From NCBI RefSeq assembly GCF_003634045.1, contig NZ_RBIM01000002.1:248001-312000 (forward strand): 64,000 bases of DNA, given 5' to 3'. The position numbers and the translations under genes are program-made. The notes beneath the pieces are model-generated. The model did not search any database. It saw only the letters and a list, made by a program, of their open reading frames with translations, and was not told where the DNA came from. Below, piece by piece: positions 42,011-50,121 of the stretch (the stretch's first letter is position 1; each line of letters opens with the position of its first letter). Source of the DNA: Maricaulis maris. Its GTDB lineage: Bacteria > Pseudomonadota > Alphaproteobacteria > Caulobacterales > Maricaulaceae.

Positions 42011-43384
42011 GTGTCCACTGATTTTCATCTCGCGCACGCTTTGCTGCCCGATGGATGGGCTAGCAATGTCCGCCTGTCCTGCGATGACGACGGTCATATT
42101 TGCGCGGTAACAAGCGGCGTTTCGGCACAAGCACGCGATACGCGTCTGGGAACCGTCGTGCCGGGCATGGCCAATCTCCACTCACACGCCTTCCAGCGCG
42201 CCATGGCCGGCTTGTCGGAAAGGCGCGGTCCGGGCCGTGACAGTTTCTGGTCCTGGCGCGAGGTGATGTATCGCTTCCTCGACCGACTCGATCCCGACGC
42301 CGTCGAAGCGATCGCCGCGCTGGTTCAGGTCGAAATGCTGGAAGCCGGTTTTACCGCCGTCGGCGAATTCCACTATCTTCACCATGATGCCGACGGTACC
42401 CCCTACGATGACCCGGGTGAAATGGCGGGCCGTATCTGCGCGGCAGCGAACACGAGCGGGATCGCCCTCACCCTGCTGCCGGTCTTCTACCGCCATGCCG
42501 GTTTCAACCAGACTCCCGCCACGCAGGGACAGCGCCGTTTCCTCAATGATCCAGATAGTTATGCCCGTTTGATGGAGCGTGCCCGGCATCATGCCGGACC
42601 CCTGCCAAACGCCCGTGTCGGCATCGCCCCGCACTCGCTGCGCGCCGCCTCGATGGACGATATCACCACCATCCTGCCCCTCGCCGGAAAGGACCCCATC
42701 CACATCCACATCGCCGAACAGACCGGGGAGGTCGAGGCCTGTCTTGCTGCCACCGGCCAGCGCCCGGTCCGCCATCTGCTCGACCACCAGCCCGTCAATG
42801 ACCGCTGGTGTCTGGTCCACGCCACCCACATGGACTCGGGTGAAATTCGCGACCTCGCCGCCTCCGGCGCTGTCGCCGGCCTGTGTCCATTGACCGAGGC
42901 CAGCCTGGGCGATGGCCTCTTCCCGGCCGTCGATTACCTCGCCGCCGGTGGGGCGATCGGCATCGGTTCGGACAGCCATATCCGCATTGATCTGGCCGAG
43001 GAAATCCGTCTCCTGGAGTATGGTCAGCGCCTGACGCACCGCCAACGCAATCTCCTCACACGCCCCGGCACCAGCACCGGCCACAACCTGTTCGATGCCT
43101 GTCTTGCCGGCGGGGCCCAAGCGTTGGGCCAACCGATGGGGCGTCTGCAAGTGGGCCTGCGCGCGGATCTGGTCGAACTCGAGACCCGACATCCCGTGCT
43201 GACCGGTCGCCGCGATGACGCCTTGCTCGACAGCTGGCTGTTTGCCGGTGATGCCCGTCAGGTCCGCAGCGTGCATGTCGGCGGGCGATTGTGCGTGACC
43301 GAAGGCCGGTCCCTTGTCCGGGACGCCGTCGAGCTACGTTATGCCAATACGCTGCAATCGATCTTGGAAGGCTGGTCCGCATGA
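42011..43384 (+). CDS. hutF: formimidoylglutamate deiminase
   Basis: HutF deiminates N-formimino-L-glutamate to N-formyl-L-glutamate, which HutG then hydrolyses. The 457-residue amidohydrolase has NLHSHAFQRAMAG (metal), FHYLHHDADG, HIHIAEQTGEV and GIGSDSHIRI. The GTG start at 42011 follows GGGGAGACACC. The stop overlaps the hutC start by 4 bases. Confidence 0.95.
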   Translation: MSTDFHLAHALLPDGWASNVRLSCDDDGHICAVTSGVSAQARDTRLGTVVPGMANLHSHAFQRAMAGLSERRGPGRDSFWSWREVMYRFLDRLDPDAVEAIAALVQVEMLEAGFTAVGEFHYLHHDADGTPYDDPGEMAGRICAAANTSGIALTLLPVFYRHAGFNQTPATQGQRRFLNDPDSYARLMERARHHAGPLPNARVGIAPHSLRAASMDDITTILPLAGKDPIHIHIAEQTGEVEACLAATGQRPVRHLLDHQPVNDRWCLVHATHMDSGEIRDLAASGAVAGLCPLTEASLGDGLFPAVDYLAAGGAIGIGSDSHIRIDLAEEIRLLEYGQRLTHRQRNLLTRPGTSTGHNLFDACLAGGAQALGQPMGRLQVGLRADLVELETRHPVLTGRRDDALLDSWLFAGDARQVRSVHVGGRLCVTEGRSLVRDAVELRYANTLQSILEGWSA

Positions 43385-44133
43385 GTGATTGGCGAGATCA
43401 GCTCAAGCTCGACGGCGACGGCCCGGTCTATGACCAGATCCGGCGCACCCTGCTCGACCGGATCAGGTCGGGCAGCTGGGAGCCCGGCCATCGCCTGCCA
43501 TCAGAGGCCGATCTCTGCGACCATTTCGGCACCGCCCGAATGACTGTCAGCCGCGCGCTGCGCGCTCTGACTGATGAAGGCCTCGTGGTACGCAAACGCC
43601 GGGCCGGCAGCTTTGTCGCGCGTCCGGATGCCCCGGCGGCCATTCTCAAAATCGTCGACATGGCCAGTGCCATTCCGGCACGCGGCCAGCGTTATGGCTA
43701 TCGCTGCCTGCTGAACCGGACCGGGCCAGTTGATGACGACGTCGCCCGGTTGATGCGCCTCCGACCGGGCGCACGCGTGCAGCATGTCAGCTGCATCCAT
43801 ACCGCCGACGGCGCGGCCGTGGAGTTCGAGGAGCGCTGGATCAATCTGGCGCTGCTTCCCGACGCCGCCCAAGCCGATTTCAACACGGAAGCGCCCGGTG
43901 GCTGGCTATTGCGCAAGACACCGTGGACCGAAGCTGAACACACCGTGTCGGCCATCAATGCCGACGAGACCCTTGCAACTTGTCTCGACATCACCCCAGG
44001 CACGGCCTGCCTTGTGCTGGAAAGGCGGACGTTCCAAGGCGACGAGGTGGTTACCGTCGCCCGGCTGACCCATCCCGGTGACCGCCATGTCATGAGCGAG
44101 CGATTCGGACCGTCCGACACGCGGCGAAGCTAG
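43381..44133 (+). CDS. hutC: histidine utilisation repressor HutC
   Basis: A 250-residue GntR/HutC-family repressor. The N-terminal winged helix (GPVYDQIRRTLLDRIRSGSW, GTARMTVSRALRALTDEGLV) is followed by a UTRA ligand domain (from about residue 90; EFEERWINLALLPDA and CLVLERRTFQGDEVVT). It is coupled to hutF by ATGA. It probably binds 41959-41972 and responds to urocanate. Confidence 0.94.
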   Translation: MSDWRDQLKLDGDGPVYDQIRRTLLDRIRSGSWEPGHRLPSEADLCDHFGTARMTVSRALRALTDEGLVVRKRRAGSFVARPDAPAAILKIVDMASAIPARGQRYGYRCLLNRTGPVDDDVARLMRLRPGARVQHVSCIHTADGAAVEFEERWINLALLPDAAQADFNTEAPGGWLLRKTPWTEAEHTVSAINADETLATCLDITPGTACLVLERRTFQGDEVVTVARLTHPGDRHVMSERFGPSDTRRS

Positions 44134-44200: not shown

Positions 44201-44830
44201 CTACGCGGTCGGCTTCGATGCCCGCACCGCATGCCGCTTGCGCAGAACATTGACGACATCGTCCAGGCTCAGCTCACGTGATTCCAGCAAGACCATGAGG
44301 TGGAAGAGAAGGTCCGCCGACTCGGCCGCCAGCGCGGTCTTGCTTTCCGACACGGCCGCCATCGCCACCTCGACCCCCTCTTCGCCGACCTTCTGGGCCG
44401 GTCGCTTGGGCGCCTTGGCCATCAAGCTGCCGACATAGGAGCCCTTGGTCTTGTCCTTCTTGCGCTTGCGGATGATCGCCCGCAAATGCGCCAGGAAGCC
44501 AAGCCCCGGCCCCGGATCATCGCCGAAACAGCTGACCGTGCCGGTATGGCAGGCCACGCCTTTCGGCTTGACCTCGACCAGCAGCGCATCGCTATCACAA
44601 TCAGCGGTCAGATTGACCAGCTTGAACGTATTGCCGGAGGTTTCGCCCTTCTTCCACAGGCGCTGTTTGGAGCGCGAGAAGAAATGGACCTTGCCGCTCT
44701 CAACCGTCGCCGCAAGCGCTTCGGCATTCATATAGCCGAGCATGAGGACCTGACGGGTCGCCACATCCTGGACGATCGCCGGGATCAGGCCATCGCCCTT
44801 TTTCCAGTCGAGCGTATCTGCATCAATCAT
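44201..44830 (-). CDS. hisIE: bifunctional phosphoribosyl-AMP cyclohydrolase / phosphoribosyl-ATP pyrophosphatase
   Basis: HisIE carries out steps 2 and 3 of histidine synthesis. The 209-residue protein is a fusion: the cyclohydrolase (about 1-110) has [30 protein letters not shown] and the zinc/Mg site around CDSDALLV and CHTG; the pyrophosphohydrolase (about 118-205) has [15 protein letters not shown] and [14 protein letters not shown] HisI-HisE fusion is typical of enterobacteria, while alphaproteobacteria usually encode hisI and hisE apart. It is coupled to hisF by a 4-base overlap and is last in the operon. Confidence 0.95.
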
Positions 44831-45594
44831 GGCCGAACCCTGATTCCCTCACCACCAAGCCAAGCCTTCAACTGCCCGATCTCGATGACCCCCTTGTGAA
44901 ACACGCTGGCAGCCAGCGCGCCCTCGACCTTGGCAAGTTCGAACACGGATTTGAAGTGCTCTTTTCGCCCGGCCCCGCCGGAGGCGATCAAAGGTGTGGA
45001 ACACACCTGCCGGACCGCCTGCAATTGCTCGATATCATAGCCGTCGCGAACACCATCCTGGTCCATGCAGTTGAGCACAACCTCGCCAGCCCCGCGGTCG
45101 ATTCCCTCGGCGATCCAGTCCAGCGTTCGGCGATGACCGATCACGGTCTTGTCCGGATCGCCAGTATATTGGTGCACTCGCCAAGCGCCCTCAATGATTC
45201 GACTATCGACACCGAGCACCACGCACTGGCTGCCAAACTCGGCCGCCAGCCGATCAATGATGGCAGGATCCTCCAGCGCCGGCGTATTGACCGAAATCTT
45301 GTCCGCTCCGGCAAACAGGCGCGCCCGGGCATCGTCGACCGAGCGGATGCCGCCCGCGACGCAAAACGGAATGTCGAGTTCGCGCGCCACCGCACTGACC
45401 CATTCCGGCTCGACTGTCCGACCGCGGGCGCTGGCGGCGATGTCGTAGAAGACCAGCTCGTCGGCCCCTTCCCGGGCATAGCGACGCGCCAGATCGACAA
45501 TGTCGCCGACATCCTCGTGATCACGAAAGCGCACGCCTTTGACCACGCGCCCGTCACGCACGTCGAGACAGGGGATTATGCGTCGCGCAAGCAT
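44827..45594 (-). CDS. hisF: imidazole glycerol phosphate synthase cyclase subunit
   Basis: HisF forms imidazole glycerol phosphate and AICAR from PRFAR using ammonia from HisH. The 255-residue barrel begins [20 protein letters not shown] and has the catalytic aspartates D11 and the one in LGVDS. The C-terminal LIASGGAG phosphate site is present. It overlaps hisA by 19 bases. The sequence is of the long enterobacterial type ([19 protein letters not shown]). Confidence 0.96.
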
Positions 45595-46310
45595 GCCACT
45601 GCCTCCGCCACGGTGAAGCGTCCCTCATACAGCGCCTTGCCGGTAATCGCGCCAGCCGCGCCGGCCTGTTTGGCGGCGCGCAAATCCTCCAGCGAGGCGA
45701 CACCGCCCGAAGCTTGCCAGGCGATATCGGGATAGTCGGTCGCGAGGCGCGTGTAGAGACCGATATTGGGCCCGGAGAGGTCTCCGTCGCGGCCGATATC
45801 GGTGACCAGGGCATGCGCCAATCCACTCTCAGCATAGGATACGAGGACATCCTCCAACGTGGTGTCGGTCGTATCCGTCCACCCTTTCAGGGCCGGCCGG
45901 TAGCGCCCGCCAATCTGGCGCACATCGAGCGCCAGTGTCAGGCGATCGCCGCCATAGCGGTCGAGCCAGTCTCGCACCCGTTCCGGTTCGGTCACGGCAA
46001 GCGATCCGACGATGACCCGCTCGACACCGCTGGCCAGCAGGTCTTCGATATCCTCCGCCGTGCGAACGCCACCACCGGTCTGCACCCGCAATCCGGTCTC
46101 GCAGATGGTGCGAATAATCGCGCCCTGACGTCGGGCTCCATCGCGGGCGCCGCTAAGATCGACGACATGGATCCATACCGCCCCGGCCTCGCCAAACTGC
46201 TCGGCAACGGCCCGCGGATCGTCGCCATAATCAGTTACGGCGTCGAATTCACCCTTGTGGAGCCGCACGACGCGGCCATCCAAAAGATCAATTGCTGGAT
46301 AAAGTATCAT
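45576..46310 (-). CDS. hisA: phosphoribosylformimino-AICAR ribotide isomerase
   Basis: HisA isomerises ProFAR to PRFAR. The 244-residue barrel has the catalytic D8 in [16 protein letters not shown], the phosphate site QTGGGVRT and the second aspartate in [14 protein letters not shown]. It overlaps hisH by 4 bases and hisF by 19, so the genes are translated as a tight unit. Confidence 0.96.
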
Positions 46311-46906
46311 CTCGAACTCATTGCAAAATTTGCCAGAATACGCGCTCCGGCAGCCCCGGAACGTTCCGGGTGAAACTGGCAGCCAGCGATATGCCGATGC
46401 CGGACCAATGCCGAGACTGGACGCCCATAATCACAGACCGCCGCAGTTACTGGTCCGGGCGGGGCGTAAAACCCATGCACGAAATAGACATGCTCACCGG
46501 TCTCGATTCCGGCCAGCAAGGGCTCGTCCGGATCAAGGATCTCAAGGGCATTCCAGCCCATGTGCGGCCAGACACCGTCAGCCGGCGGTGGCAGTTTTTC
46601 GATCGCCCCCGGGATCAGGCCAAGGCACGCGACCTCCCCTTCGGCCGAGCGCTCGAACAGCATCTGCATGCCGAGACAAATCCCGAGCAAGGGGCGCGTG
46701 TCGGTCGCCAGAGCCTGGTCCCAGCCGGCAGTACGCAGGCGCCGCATCGCCGGGCCGGCCGCACCGACACCGGGCAGGATGAAACGGTCACAGCCAGCCA
46801 TCCTGGCCGGCGTGTCAATGACCCGATAGGTCAGTCCCGCCCGCTCGAGCGCAAATCGGACCGACGCCAGATTGGCGCAGCCCGTGTCGATCAGGCCGAT
46901 GCTCAT
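46307..46906 (-). CDS. hisH: imidazole glycerol phosphate synthase glutamine amidotransferase subunit
   Basis: HisH hydrolyses glutamine and channels ammonia to HisF. The 199-residue class I amidotransferase has the nucleophile cysteine in LLGICLGMQ and the His-Glu pair in CQFHPERSG. The N-terminal LIDTGCANLASV matches the enterobacterial type (DTGCANL) rather than the DYGxGNL found in most others. It overlaps hisDB and hisA by 4 bases each. Confidence 0.95.
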   Translation of the reverse strand: MSIGLIDTGCANLASVRFALERAGLTYRVIDTPARMAGCDRFILPGVGAAGPAMRRLRTAGWDQALATDTRPLLGICLGMQMLFERSAEGEVACLGLIPGAIEKLPPPADGVWPHMGWNALEILDPDEPLLAGIETGEHVYFVHGFYAPPGPVTAAVCDYGRPVSALVRHRHIAGCQFHPERSGAAGARILANFAMSSR

Positions 46907-48801
46907 GCCAGCATGCCCTTGGTCGACGGTAAGGCATCGCCCTCAACCCGCAAGGCCTGACGCAAGGCGCGACCGAAGGCCTTGAAACAGCTTTCCACCA
47001 TGTGGTGGGCGTTCTCGCCCTCGACCTTCACATGGATGGCCGCGCCGAGACTCTCGGCGATTGAGCGGAAACAGTGGGGCGTCATCTCGACCGGGAATTC
47101 GCCGACACTGTCGCCGGGGATTTCCCCATCGAAGCGCGCAAACGGTCGACCAGACAGGTCAATCCAGACCGCCGCCCGGCTCTCATCCATCGGCAGTTCG
47201 AAACCGAAACGACCAAGCCCGCGCTTGTCACCAAGCGCCGTGCGCAGGGCCTCACCAAAGGTCAGGCAGACATCCTCAATCGTGTGGTGGCCATCAATCT
47301 CGAGATCACCTTCCACGGCCACGTCCAGCGCGAAACCGCCGTGCCGGGCAATCTGGTCGAGCATGTGATCGAAATAGCCGATACCGGTGGCGATCCGGAT
47401 CGGGCCGTCGCGATCCAGATTGACCGTCACCGTGACGTCCGTCTCCTTGGTCTTGCGGCGCTTGCTGCCGGCACGCGGGCCGACCGGAGCAGCGGCTGTC
47501 GTCTCCCGCTCCGCCTTTTCGCGCCGCAGGCGCATGGCCAGGGCGTGGGCATCCAGCTGTTCCAGCGCGGCCAGGCGTTCGACCGTCGGTGCCATGGCAG
47601 CGGCGCCGCCCCGGCTGGCGCGCAGGATGGTGGTCGTCTTCTGGAAGCTTTCCACCGAGACGCCGCCATGCGCCTTGGCGGTGCCGGCTGTGGGCAGGGT
47701 GTGGTTTGGTCCGGCGGCATAATCACCCGCCGCTTCCGGCGTCCAGGCACCCACAAAGATCGAGCCGGCATGACGGACCAGCCCGAGCAGGCGCTCGGCG
47801 CTCTCGGCCTGCAGGATCAAGTGTTCCGGCGCGTAGACATTGGCGATATCGGCGGCATCCTCGACCGTGTCGCAGATGAGGATACGCGAGGCCGCAAGTG
47901 CCTGGCGGGCGATATCAGCACGGGGCAGGTCGGCAATCAGACGTCCGACAGATGCCGCCACGCGGTTCGCTGTGTCTCCATCAAAGCAGACCAGCATGAC
48001 CTGGGCCGAGGGATCATGTTCAGCCTGGCTGAGCAAATCGCTGGCGACCAGGTCTGGGTCCGCTTGGCCGTCGGCGATGACCATGACCTCGCTGGGTCCG
48101 GCCGGCAGGTCGACCGCAGGCCCGCCGGGCAGGCTGCTGACATAGGCCTTGGCGGCCGCAACATAGGCATTGCCAGGGCCAAAAATCTTGTCAGCCCGCG
48201 GCAGTCCCGCAACACCCAGCGACAGGGCCGCGACGGCTTGGGCACCGCCGATGGCATAGACTTCGTCGAGGCCCAGCAGATCGGCGGCGGCGAGCAGCGC
48301 CGGATTGACACCGGCCTTGCCCTGGGGCGGCGCGACGACGGCAATACGCGGCACGCCGGCGAGCTGTGCCGGCACGGCCAGCATGATCAGGGAGGACACC
48401 AGCGGCGCCGAACCGGCTGGCACATAGAGTGCGGCCGTGTCGATCGGGGTGGCGCGGCGCGAGGCCGTCACCCCGGGCCAGGTCTCGACAGAATAATTGC
48501 GATAGCCCTGTTCGATGTGAAAACGCCGGACCGCATCGGCTGCCGCCTTGATCGCCTCGGCATCAGCCGGGTCGAGGGAAGCACGTGCAGCGGCAATGGT
48601 GCCGGCCGGGACCCGGAAATCCGACGGCGCATATCCGTCGAGCCGTTGGGCATAGGCGCGGACGGCCGTCTCGCCCTGATCGCGCACGGCATTGACGATG
48701 TCGCGCGCCGCGGCGTCCGCCGTGCCGGCACTGAGCGGCCGGGCCAGCGCGGCAGCGCGATCCTCGGATGAGGTCTGCGTCCAGTTGATGATGTCCAGCA
48801 T
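46903..48801 (-). CDS. hisD-hisB: fused histidinol dehydrogenase / imidazoleglycerol-phosphate dehydratase
   Basis: One uninterrupted 632-codon frame joins two normally separate enzymes. Residues about 1-425 are histidinol dehydrogenase (last two steps), with GSAPLVSSLIMLAVPAQLAG, KIFGPGNAYVA, the substrate site AGPSEVMVIAD, DLLSQAEHDP and the catalytic PEHL pair. After a basic, alanine-rich linker (about 426-452), residues about 453-632 are the HisB dehydratase (step 7), with GIGYFDHMLDQIARHGG, GHHTIEDV, FELPMDE, ENAHHMVESCFKAFG and PSTKGML. Both halves look complete and resemble the enterobacterial proteins (LPRADIARQALAASRI; ALGDKRGLGRFGF). The HisC aminotransferase and HisB-N phosphatase genes that lie between them in enterobacteria are absent. 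GAGG precedes the ATG, 10 bases after hisG. Confidence 0.93.
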   Translation of the reverse strand: MLDIINWTQTSSEDRAAALARPLSAGTADAAARDIVNAVRDQGETAVRAYAQRLDGYAPSDFRVPAGTIAAARASLDPADAEAIKAAADAVRRFHIEQGYRNYSVETWPGVTASRRATPIDTAALYVPAGSAPLVSSLIMLAVPAQLAGVPRIAVVAPPQGKAGVNPALLAAADLLGLDEVYAIGGAQAVAALSLGVAGLPRADKIFGPGNAYVAAAKAYVSSLPGGPAVDLPAGPSEVMVIADGQADPDLVASDLLSQAEHDPSAQVMLVCFDGDTANRVAASVGRLIADLPRADIARQALAASRILICDTVEDAADIANVYAPEHLILQAESAERLLGLVRHAGSIFVGAWTPEAAGDYAAGPNHTLPTAGTAKAHGGVSVESFQKTTTILRASRGGAAAMAPTVERLAALEQLDAHALAMRLRREKAERETTAAAPVGPRAGSKRRKTKETDVTVTVNLDRDGPIRIATGIGYFDHMLDQIARHGGFALDVAVEGDLEIDGHHTIEDVCLTFGEALRTALGDKRGLGRFGFELPMDESRAAVWIDLSGRPFARFDGEIPGDSVGEFPVEMTPHCFRSIAESLGAAIHVKVEGENAHHMVESCFKAFGRALRQALRVEGDALPSTKGMLA

Positions 48802-48811
48802 GGTCTTGGCC

Positions 48812-49696
48812 TCAGGCGAGCATTTTTTCGATCGGCAGGACGAGGATGGCGCGGGCGCCCTCTTTCTCCAGCGCTTCCAGCGTCTCCCAGAAGACGCGTT
48901 CGCGGCAGACGGCATGCACGGCAACGACATCCTCGCGACCGGCGACCTTGGCGATGGTCGGAGCATCCGCGCCCGGCAGCAGCGCCCGGATCGCGTCAAG
49001 CCGATCGGTCGGCGCATTCAGCATGATGTATTTGGTCTGGGCCGACGCGATCACGCCTTCGGCGCGCCGCATCAGGATATTGGCGATGGCATCGCTGTCA
49101 GCCGGGCGCCCGGACTTGCGGCGGATCAGCACCGCCTCGCTGCGCAGGACGGTTTCAAACGCCTTGAGACCATTGGCCTGCAGGGTGGCACCGGACGACA
49201 CCAAATCGCAGATTGCATCGGCAATGCGCAGCCTTGGCGCGACTTCGACCGAGCCGCGCATTTCGACGATCTCGGCCTCGATACCGCGATCCTTGAGGAA
49301 TTGCGCGGTCAGCCCGGGATAGGAGGTTGCGATCGCCTTGCCCGCCAAGTCCTCAACCGAGCGGATATCGCCATCCTGCGGCGCGGCCAGTTTCAGCGTG
49401 CAGCCGGCAAAACCCAGTCGCAGGGCGACTTCGAGTTCACGGGCTCGGACGCTGGAGGCCTGCTCCTCGGCCAGAACATTCTCGCCAACAATGCCGTAAT
49501 CACACGCACCGCTGCCGACGAAATTGGGAATGTCATCATCGCGCACCAGCATCAGGTCGACGGGCATGTTCTCGGCCCGCTGGTGCAGCTTGTCGCGGCC
49601 ATAGGCGAACCGCAGGCCACAGCGTTTCAGCAGGTCCATGCCACCTTCAGCGAGGCGGCCCTTGCTCTGAACGGCAATACGCAGGCGAGAGGTCAC
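48812..49696 (-). CDS. hisG: ATP phosphoribosyltransferase, long form
   Basis: HisG joins ATP and PRPP in the first committed step and is inhibited by histidine. The 294-residue protein is the long form (about 1-225 catalytic, with SGACDYGIVGENVL, MRGSVEVAPRLRIADAICDL and SSGATLQANGL; then a C-terminal regulatory domain ending ILVLPIEKM). Long HisG does not need HisZ; most alphaproteobacteria use the short HisG with HisZ. It overlaps the trpR-like gene by 4 bases. Confidence 0.96.
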   Translation of the reverse strand: MTSRLRIAVQSKGRLAEGGMDLLKRCGLRFAYGRDKLHQRAENMPVDLMLVRDDDIPNFVGSGACDYGIVGENVLAEEQASSVRARELEVALRLGFAGCTLKLAAPQDGDIRSVEDLAGKAIATSYPGLTAQFLKDRGIEAEIVEMRGSVEVAPRLRIADAICDLVSSGATLQANGLKAFETVLRSEAVLIRRKSGRPADSDAIANILMRRAEGVIASAQTKYIMLNAPTDRLDAIRALLPGADAPTIAKVAGREDVVAVHAVCRERVFWETLEALEKEGARAILVLPIEKMLA

Positions 49697-50013
49697 GATC
49701 GGCTCTCCTTGAGACGGTTGAGAATGGTGCGATAGCCCTGCCAGGGTTCCTGGCTGAGAAAGCGTGCGACCCGGGTGACAGTGGTCGTGCTGGCGCCGGT
49801 CATGTCGGAGATTTCCCGATAGGAATGGCCACCCTCGGCGAGCAAGCCGGCGACCCGCCAGCGCTCGGTCAGCGTCTTCATCTCACCCGGCGTCAGCAGG
49901 TCGCGCAGAAAACGTTCGGCCTCGCCGATATCGCGCAAAGCAAGAATGGCCTCGCTCAGGGAAGTCAGGTCGGTCGGTCCGTCGGGTCGGCTGGTGGGCG
50001 TATCGGTCATCAT
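49693..50013 (-). CDS. YerC/YecD-type TrpR-related regulator, candidate his repressor
   Basis: A 106-residue Trp-repressor-like HTH protein. Helices LTSLSEAILALRDIGEAERFL, the LLTPGEMKTLTERWRV segment and the recognition region YREISDMTGASTTTVTRVARFL are as in the YerC/YecD family. It is the first gene of the his operon (AAGGAG leader, 4-base overlap with hisG), with a perfect 12-base palindrome in the promoter, so autoregulation and his control are likely. The corepressor could be histidine; not proven. Confidence 0.85.
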   Translation of the reverse strand: MMTDTPTSRPDGPTDLTSLSEAILALRDIGEAERFLRDLLTPGEMKTLTERWRVAGLLAEGGHSYREISDMTGASTTTVTRVARFLSQEPWQGYRTILNRLKESRS

Positions 50014-50042
50014 GTCGATCTCCTTGAGGTCGATATAGCGTA

Positions 50043-50054
50043 TTAGCGCGCTAA
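50043..50054. promoter_or_regulatory. palindromic operator in the his operon promoter
   Basis: TTAGCGCGCTAA is a perfect 12-base palindrome 29 bases upstream of the trpR-like ATG. Reading leftward, TTGTGT then 16 bases then TATATC form a possible promoter, and the palindrome lies in the spacer. A bound repressor would block RNA polymerase. Confidence 0.65.
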
Positions 50055-50121
50055 CACAATGACAGATTCAGTTGACGTGCAGCATGGCCCGATGATTGCG
50101 GATGACAGGTCCTCCCCTATA

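Follow-up and report, generated by a model that had tools for sequence, protein, structure and literature searches.

The his operon is a textbook case of gene fusions shaping pathways, and the literature on his genes, in its accessible parts, names hisNB, hisIE, hisHF, HIS4 and HIS7 as fusions (including PMC1963479). Here we describe a new variant of this known kind, a fusion of histidinol dehydrogenase (HisD) to imidazoleglycerol-phosphate dehydratase (HisB, or IGPD) in the his operon of Maricaulis maris, encoded within a 64,000-nucleotide stretch of contig NZ_RBIM01000002.1 (positions 248,001 to 312,000; referred to as the window). Like his-operon fusions in general, it places two enzymes of the pathway in a single frame that has no internal stop and is conserved between species. 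It resembles HisNB (the histidinol-phosphatase/IGPD encoded by E. coli hisB; NF003937) in having IGPD at the C-terminus, another his enzyme at the N-terminus and the same slot in the operon, but the N-terminal partner is HisD in Maricaulis, and HisC or a remnant in relatives, rather than a phosphatase. In line with this, NF003937 scored 277.5 bits on the fusion, below its cut-off of 443, and aligned only over profile positions 165-355 of 355, the dehydratase part, leaving the phosphatase half of HisNB without a counterpart. Fungal HIS4 (HisI-HisE-HisD; accessible parts of PMC1963479) likewise joins HisD to other his enzymes, but there HisD is C-terminal and its partners catalyse steps 2-3, whereas Maricaulis HisD is N-terminal and has HisB as its partner. 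The heptafunctional his protein of Acanthamoeba (accessible parts of PMC6029752) is also a lineage-specific multi-his fusion that includes HisD, although it is eukaryotic and IGPD lies on a separate gene. Finally, the same two genes are neighbours in Listeria, Priestia and Clostridium acetobutylicum, where, unlike in Maricaulis, they are separate and no relic of HisC was noticed.

Neither HisD-HisB nor HisC-HisB is among the fusions named in the accessible parts of the his-operon literature (including PMC1963479), some of which does not contain the term hisC at all. Where hisD-hisB or hisC-hisB occurs in the accessible text of PMC3828012, PMC6432763 and PMC7696456, it denotes gene order and not a fusion. 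More broadly, no natural fusion of either type is described in the accessible parts of the literature searched, most of which lies outside subscription journals (e.g. PMC8305728, PMC1963479, PMC12700997, PMC10138114, PMC9413887, PMC6029752, PMC10978614, PMC11237513). We consider it probable, at roughly 80%, that the Maricaulis protein arose by loss, in that a HisC fused to HisB decayed, shrank and vanished, after which HisD joined HisB in frame.

The minus strand of the window from 46903 to 48801 is a single stop-free frame of 632 residues encoding a complete HisD followed by a complete HisB, as the original prediction had stated, and the profiles of both enzymes matched it (Table 1); read on the plus strand, the same interval contains stops. 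The TIGR00069 hisD profile aligned to residues 33-426 with 477.5 bits, passing its cut-off of 243.8, and Pfam Histidinol_dh (PF00815) to residues 28-426. Aligned against 1k75, the E. coli HisD, the HisD half gave E=2.3e-105; residues Q259, H262, E326, H327, D360 and H419, which we take to be the zinc and catalytic residues of the E. coli enzyme, carry identical numbering in this alignment and do not vary among 16 Maricaulis sequences. Within the HisB half, the IGPD profile PF00475 matched residues 472-613 over its whole length (1-144 of 144; 186.7 bits, above the gathering score) and NF002111 matched residues 443-631, while H479, H505, H506, E509, H576, H599, H600 and E603, presumably the metal-binding His/Glu pattern of IGPD, are invariant across the same 16 sequences. 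Since catalytic residues are intact in both halves, both look active, and a single chain should carry out step 6 together with steps 9-10. The claim that the fused enzymes catalyse the non-consecutive steps 7 and 9-10 is right as to their being non-consecutive, but IGPD catalyses step 6, not 7 (accessible parts of PMC10978614).

The short basic linker noted between the two halves consists, on our reading of the alignments, mostly of the N-terminal arm of HisB, lacking its Met, which ~8-10 further residues connect to HisD. This arm is also found after intact and decayed HisC in relatives, and forms the N-terminus of a stand-alone HisB (L161). The best explanation of the sequence is a bifunctional protein whose HisD and HisB halves would be tethered by a short flexible linker. 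An AlphaFold 2 model of the fusion was mediocre (predicted local distance difference test score, pLDDT, 77.5; predicted TM-score 0.62; residues 435-440 below 50) and was not used for claims about an interface. The idea that the RxG/A...RxTxET residues of the linker are a fossil of a HisC-HisB junction was dropped: since the same residues occur in the arm of the stand-alone L161 HisB, they show only that HisB is complete.

HisD-HisB is a genus trait of Maricaulis. A stop-free, full-length or nearly full-length fusion frame was present in 17 of the 18 other Maricaulis genomes, both isolates and metagenome-assembled genomes (MAGs), at 60-90% identity, so that the search in related genomes proposed with the original prediction was successful; in the eighteenth (G013) a contig end cuts the gene, and residues 265-632 matched without a stop. 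In six Maricaulis pairs, which are partly non-independent and saturated, the ratio of nonsynonymous to synonymous substitution rates (dN/dS) was 0.05-0.12 for HisD and 0.01-0.02 for HisB, indicating strong purifying selection; over the 14-16 linker codons it was 0.18-0.69 in five pairs and undefined in one. That the frame is an artefact of assembly or a frame error, for which we found no supporting point, is practically discounted by the identical frame in 17 of 18 congeners, isolates and MAGs alike, and by dN/dS values far below 1.

Across relatives, the operon reads hisR-G-D-[X]-B-H-A-F-IE and is constant apart from X. In the relatives outside the genus covered by the search for the fusion frame, hisD and hisB matched separately, hisB often within longer frames. 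We analysed the stretch between the two genes at 37 loci from the order, of which 21 are unnamed and 16 named; these yielded 34 distinct X sequences when starts were placed at the first possible codon. Eleven of these are intact, with a HisC of 355-365 residues fused to HisB and the motif SLSK, which we take to hold the lysine that binds pyridoxal phosphate (PLP), present in 11/11. Four are of intermediate length (the mid class; 268-289 residues), are clearly recognised as HisC by a hidden Markov model (HMM; E 5e-21 to 3e-42 in this four-sequence set) and have lost the lysine in 4/4, and the remaining 19 are short remnants of 186-234 residues, again with the lysine lost in 19/19. All 23 mid and short sequences therefore lack the PLP lysine expected of an active HisC.

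These architectures bear on the origin first proposed for the fusion, in which a single clean deletion would have removed hisC together with the phosphatase half of hisB from an enterobacterial-type hisGDC[NB]HAF[IE] operon. The remaining gene order fits such an event, and hisC has indeed been lost between hisD and hisB. However, there is no sign of a lost phosphatase half: only HisC-HisB and decayed HisC-HisB, and no phosphatase ahead of HisB, were found in relatives of the order analysed (the Pfam scan for such a domain covering one remnant, L046), both HisD-HisB fusions known from it (see below) group with the decayed forms, and hisN is separate in Maricaulis and its relatives. A clean deletion is thus very improbable. 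Separate genes of an unrelated history in relatives, which would have spoken against that proposal, are not what we see.

The short remnant likely descends from HisC, a reading in which several weak lines (hhalign, HMM and structural matches) are taken together with the existence of the mid forms and the common position in the operon. An hhalign comparison of the short remnant with intact HisC gave E=2.5e-4 and a score of 36.0, collinear at the C-terminal end, whereas 60 column-shuffled controls scored at most 20.6 with a probability of at most 1%. In addition, an AlphaFold 2 model of a Marinicauda remnant-HisB protein (pLDDT 85.9) was used in a Foldseek search, in which the first 29 hits were IGPD chains and those ranked 30-50 were named aminotransferases or other PLP enzymes, with probabilities of 0.92-0.99. 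The remnant is still evolving under constraint, with dN/dS of 0.05-0.40 in eight partly overlapping pairs as compared with 0.01-0.13 for HisB, although some of these pairs have saturated dS.

Phylogenetic analysis was used to place the fusion among these forms. In a quick tree built from seven His proteins in concatenation (51 rows) and a careful tree (54 rows), the Maricaulis fusion forms one clade (support 100, starred, and 100/99, respectively), and this clade is joined with short-remnant genomes only (100, starred, and 100/100), intact HisC-HisB falling outside. An order-wide survey for stop-free HisD-HisB (299 genomes, E up to 1e-150) revealed a second such fusion within family f4: ten full-length genomes and one partial genome of genus g234 carry it, at 48-53% identity to the fusion of the window. 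In the careful tree it is sister to a mid HisC locus of Hyphomonadaceae (L075; 100/100), with three more mid genomes and one short one (L120) nearby and two intact genomes outside these. That the g234 fusion would have passed through a decayed HisC is well supported by this placement. A single origin of the Maricaulis and g234 fusions was rejected by the approximately unbiased (AU) test, in which constraining both to one clade gave p-AU values of 8e-61 (HisD+HisB, 35 rows) and 9e-49 (HisG+H+A+F, 36 rows). Judged by these alignments, Maricaulis and g234 reached HisD-HisB independently.

Redundancy explains the decay of the operon HisC: genomes with an intact HisC-HisB mostly lack a second hisC, and the decayed ones carry one elsewhere. 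Counting matches above the family cut-off in a set of 61 genomes, hisC was found in the HisC-HisB fusion only in nine (G019, G023, G026, G028, G029, G033, G035, G036 and G040), both in the fusion and as a stand-alone gene in two (G020 and G024), and solely as a stand-alone gene in 10/10 decayed genomes, in the M. maris genome and in 16 of the 18 other Maricaulis; weaker aminotransferase matches were present in 61/61. The stand-alone gene lies in a cluster, gloB-methyltransferase-hisC-DUF2125-plsC-ydcF-ftsX-ftsE, which holds hisC in M. maris, three further Maricaulis and the seven short-remnant genomes examined, as well as in G024 and, within the limits of a 6-kb contig, G020. None of the nine fusion-only genomes has a HisC match in the stretches around the cluster methyltransferase; ydcF, ftsX and ftsE follow the methyltransferase in seven of them, and the other two have no downstream marker. 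In a HisC tree, stand-alone HisC forms one clade (99, starred) and operon-type HisC another (100, starred). Fusion-only genomes hold other frames in this cluster; in the one checked for what fills the place of hisC (G028; L193), it is taken by chorismate mutase and prephenate dehydrogenase. In g234 (L204-L214), a hisC of the stand-alone kind follows hisIE at the downstream edge of the his operon, as though it had rejoined the operon after loss of the operon hisC. M. maris itself carries both hisC and hisN as separate genes (Table 1), in keeping with the original prediction. Across the set, 60/61 genomes matched HisN (TIGR02067) at E up to 1e-60, 38 of them above the cut-off; G013, which is 65% complete, had no match at that threshold.

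Stop-free fusions of this type were also sought beyond the order. Among the best matches listed for 398 genomes drawn from the phylum, the only one was that of the M. maris genome itself, and in G085 the two genes abut with a stop. Intact HisC-HisB was found in 5/289 genomes of the class (E up to 1e-110), four of the five without a HisD match in between. A plasmid search gave 14 records in which one place covered at least 80% of the query; among the 13 listed, the annotated ones were separate genes. HisD-HisB also arose in the Firmicutes UBA6811 phylum, where 299 genomes (E up to 1e-90) gave 27 single matches spanning HisD and HisB, one of them stop-free (G1027; L220, 3735-5822 on the minus strand, 695 residues from the first ATG), the other 26 having stops between the genes. 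Two loci, L086 and L100, have a hisD frame that extends ~1 to 1.3 kb beyond HisD and ends shortly ahead of hisB, which points to HisD-HisC fusions in Lautropia and in Firmicutes UBA6811, and L071 and L081 have hisB frames of 543 and 591 residues after hisD, suggesting HisC-HisB fusions in Bacteroidales and Anaerolineae MAGs.

Another conceivable origin of HisD-HisB is loss of a stop codon between adjacent hisD and hisB, with never any HisC between them. Genes sharing a frame apart from stops do exist, at L161 and in the 26 of 27 spanning matches, and G1027 is fused. In the order of Maricaulis, however, all 37 non-fused loci examined carry HisC or its remnant at that place, making such an origin highly unlikely here.

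The proposed origin by loss can be set out in steps. First, a hisC lying between hisD and hisB would have been fused in frame to hisB, giving HisC-HisB. With a second, stand-alone HisC in these genomes, one copy would have been spare; certain lineages may then have discarded the stand-alone copy, while elsewhere the HisC half would have lost its PLP lysine and eroded from ~360 to ~190-230 residues, still translated ahead of HisB. In Maricaulis, the leftover would finally have disappeared when HisD was joined in frame to the N-terminal arm of HisB, making HisD the new N-terminal partner, and the same removal and join would have taken place independently in g234. We envisage a ratchet: with no start codon of its own, HisB would be produced solely as the C-terminal passenger of another protein, and a dead HisC would be kept as its leader, to be shed only if HisB became continuous with the neighbouring upstream frame. 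Because HisB would have lost its own start upon fusion to HisC, the dead HisC could shrink but not vanish until HisD joined. From 25 codons before to 12 codons after the HisB motif, ATG is absent in 14 of 15 named Maricaulis loci, three of which have neither ATG, GTG nor TTG there. We think that the fusion is mainly historical in cause. Living relatives preserve the intermediates, namely the intact fusion, the dead half, the shrunken remnant and the new fusion, and the end state has been attained two times. Two questions thereby become testable: whether loss, as opposed to a benefit from channelling, can give rise to fusions, and what keeps a dead enzyme domain under selection.

HisD, like HisC, is a dimer. 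A structural role for the N-terminal partner is the main rival to the ratchet: with the same history, the fusion would have been favoured by the tether itself or by a shared particle, in which HisD could sit outside the HisB shell. IGPD is a 24-mer whose N-terminal sheet faces outward (accessible parts of PMC10978614), HisB always has an N-terminal partner in genomes of these clades, and HisD-HisB has appeared twice independently within one order and once in a UBA6811 phylum genome. Against this, steps 6 and 9-10 are non-consecutive, a catalytically dead partner suffices in sister genera, and recurrence within one order is equally predicted by the ratchet; we consider selected tethering unlikely. 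A bolder proposal, which we offer only tentatively, is that HisB has become an obligate C-terminal passenger in this order, first on HisC, then on a dead HisC under purifying selection, then twice on HisD. The N-terminal slot of the 24-mer might be needed for assembly, solubility or translation irrespective of any catalytic activity of its occupant, and HisD-HisB might form a large particle with HisD outside the HisB shell. If this holds, it would be a general way for a dead domain in a fused protein to be replaced by an enzyme encoded next to it.

A number of points weigh against an origin by decay of HisC. For the remnant, hhalign put the probability of homology to HisC at 43%, the best HMM E-value in the 19-sequence set was a weak 0.0014, and the PLP-enzyme matches in Foldseek had E-values of 0.009-0.024 and TM-scores of 0.21-0.29, the aligned part of the model not being displayed. 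A Pfam scan of L046, the only remnant scanned, found nothing besides IGPD at E up to 0.1, which also means that L046 has no phosphatase domain. In the trees, which are his-operon trees and not species trees, the position of Maricaulis inside or beside the remnant genomes is poorly supported (49 in the quick tree; in the careful tree, 83/34 for a grouping of the remnants), so that for Maricaulis itself a direct, single-step loss of HisC from a still intact HisC-HisB is conceivable. A quick tree of HisD and HisB only requires two changes for the Maricaulis rows, of which the starred branches force just one. G020 and G021, labelled family f1, group on the g234 side of the careful tree, and transfer of the his operon between families is therefore possible. 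As to redundancy, no hisC above the cut-off was found in the MAGs G007 and G008 (90% and 69% complete), and the mid genomes examined (3/3) carry their stand-alone hisC somewhere other than in the gloB-ftsE cluster. Internal initiation of HisB may occur in Maricaulis: an in-frame Met423 in the last helix of HisD, ~28 codons before the HisB motif, is kept in 15/16 sequences, and a GTG or TTG lies 5-9 codons past the motif in 10 of the 15 named loci. The overlap and saturation of the dN/dS pairs belong here too.

Table 1 Features of the HisD-HisB fusion, the his operon of the window and the separate hisC and hisN genes of M. maris
Feature	Location	Strand	Evidence or remark
HisD half (histidinol dehydrogenase, steps 9-10), residues 1-430	47512..48801	-	TIGR00069, PF00815, alignment to 1k75
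Junction, residues 431-447: ~8-10 extra residues and start of HisB N-terminal arm without initiator Met	47461..47511	-	alignment of 16 Maricaulis sequences
HisB half (imidazoleglycerol-phosphate dehydratase, step 6), residues 448-632	46906..47460	-	PF00475, NF002111; stop at 46903-46905
hisH	46307..46906	-	TIGR01855 192.3 bits; start overlaps stop of fusion (at 46906)
hisA	45576..46310	-	TIGR00007 239.3 bits
hisF	44827..45594	-	TIGR00735 320.9 bits
hisIE	44201..44830	-	NF002747 269.5 bits
hisG, long form	48812..49696	-	TIGR00070 and TIGR03455
TrpR-family YerC/YecD regulator (HisR-like), first operon gene	49693..50013	-	TIGR02531 62.2 bits (cut-off 42.2); PF01371
Palindrome TGTGTTAGCGCGCTAATACG, weak candidate HisR operator directly upstream of hisR-like gene	50039..50058	.	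3 mismatches to published proteobacterial HisR consensus
Stand-alone hisC	G000:C8:127021-128073		307.4 bits (cut-off 276.55)
hisN, separate gene	G000:C1:143709-144455		TIGR02067 288.8 bits (cut-off 275.15)

An Rfam scan of the window gave no match. For a match to the HisR consensus of the grade of TGTGTTAGCGCGCTAATACG, 0.92 occurrences are expected by chance across the whole window. Adjoining the his operon and pointing towards it are genes for a HutF-like formimidoylglutamate deiminase and a GntR/UTRA (HutC-like) regulator (42011-43384 and 43291-44133).

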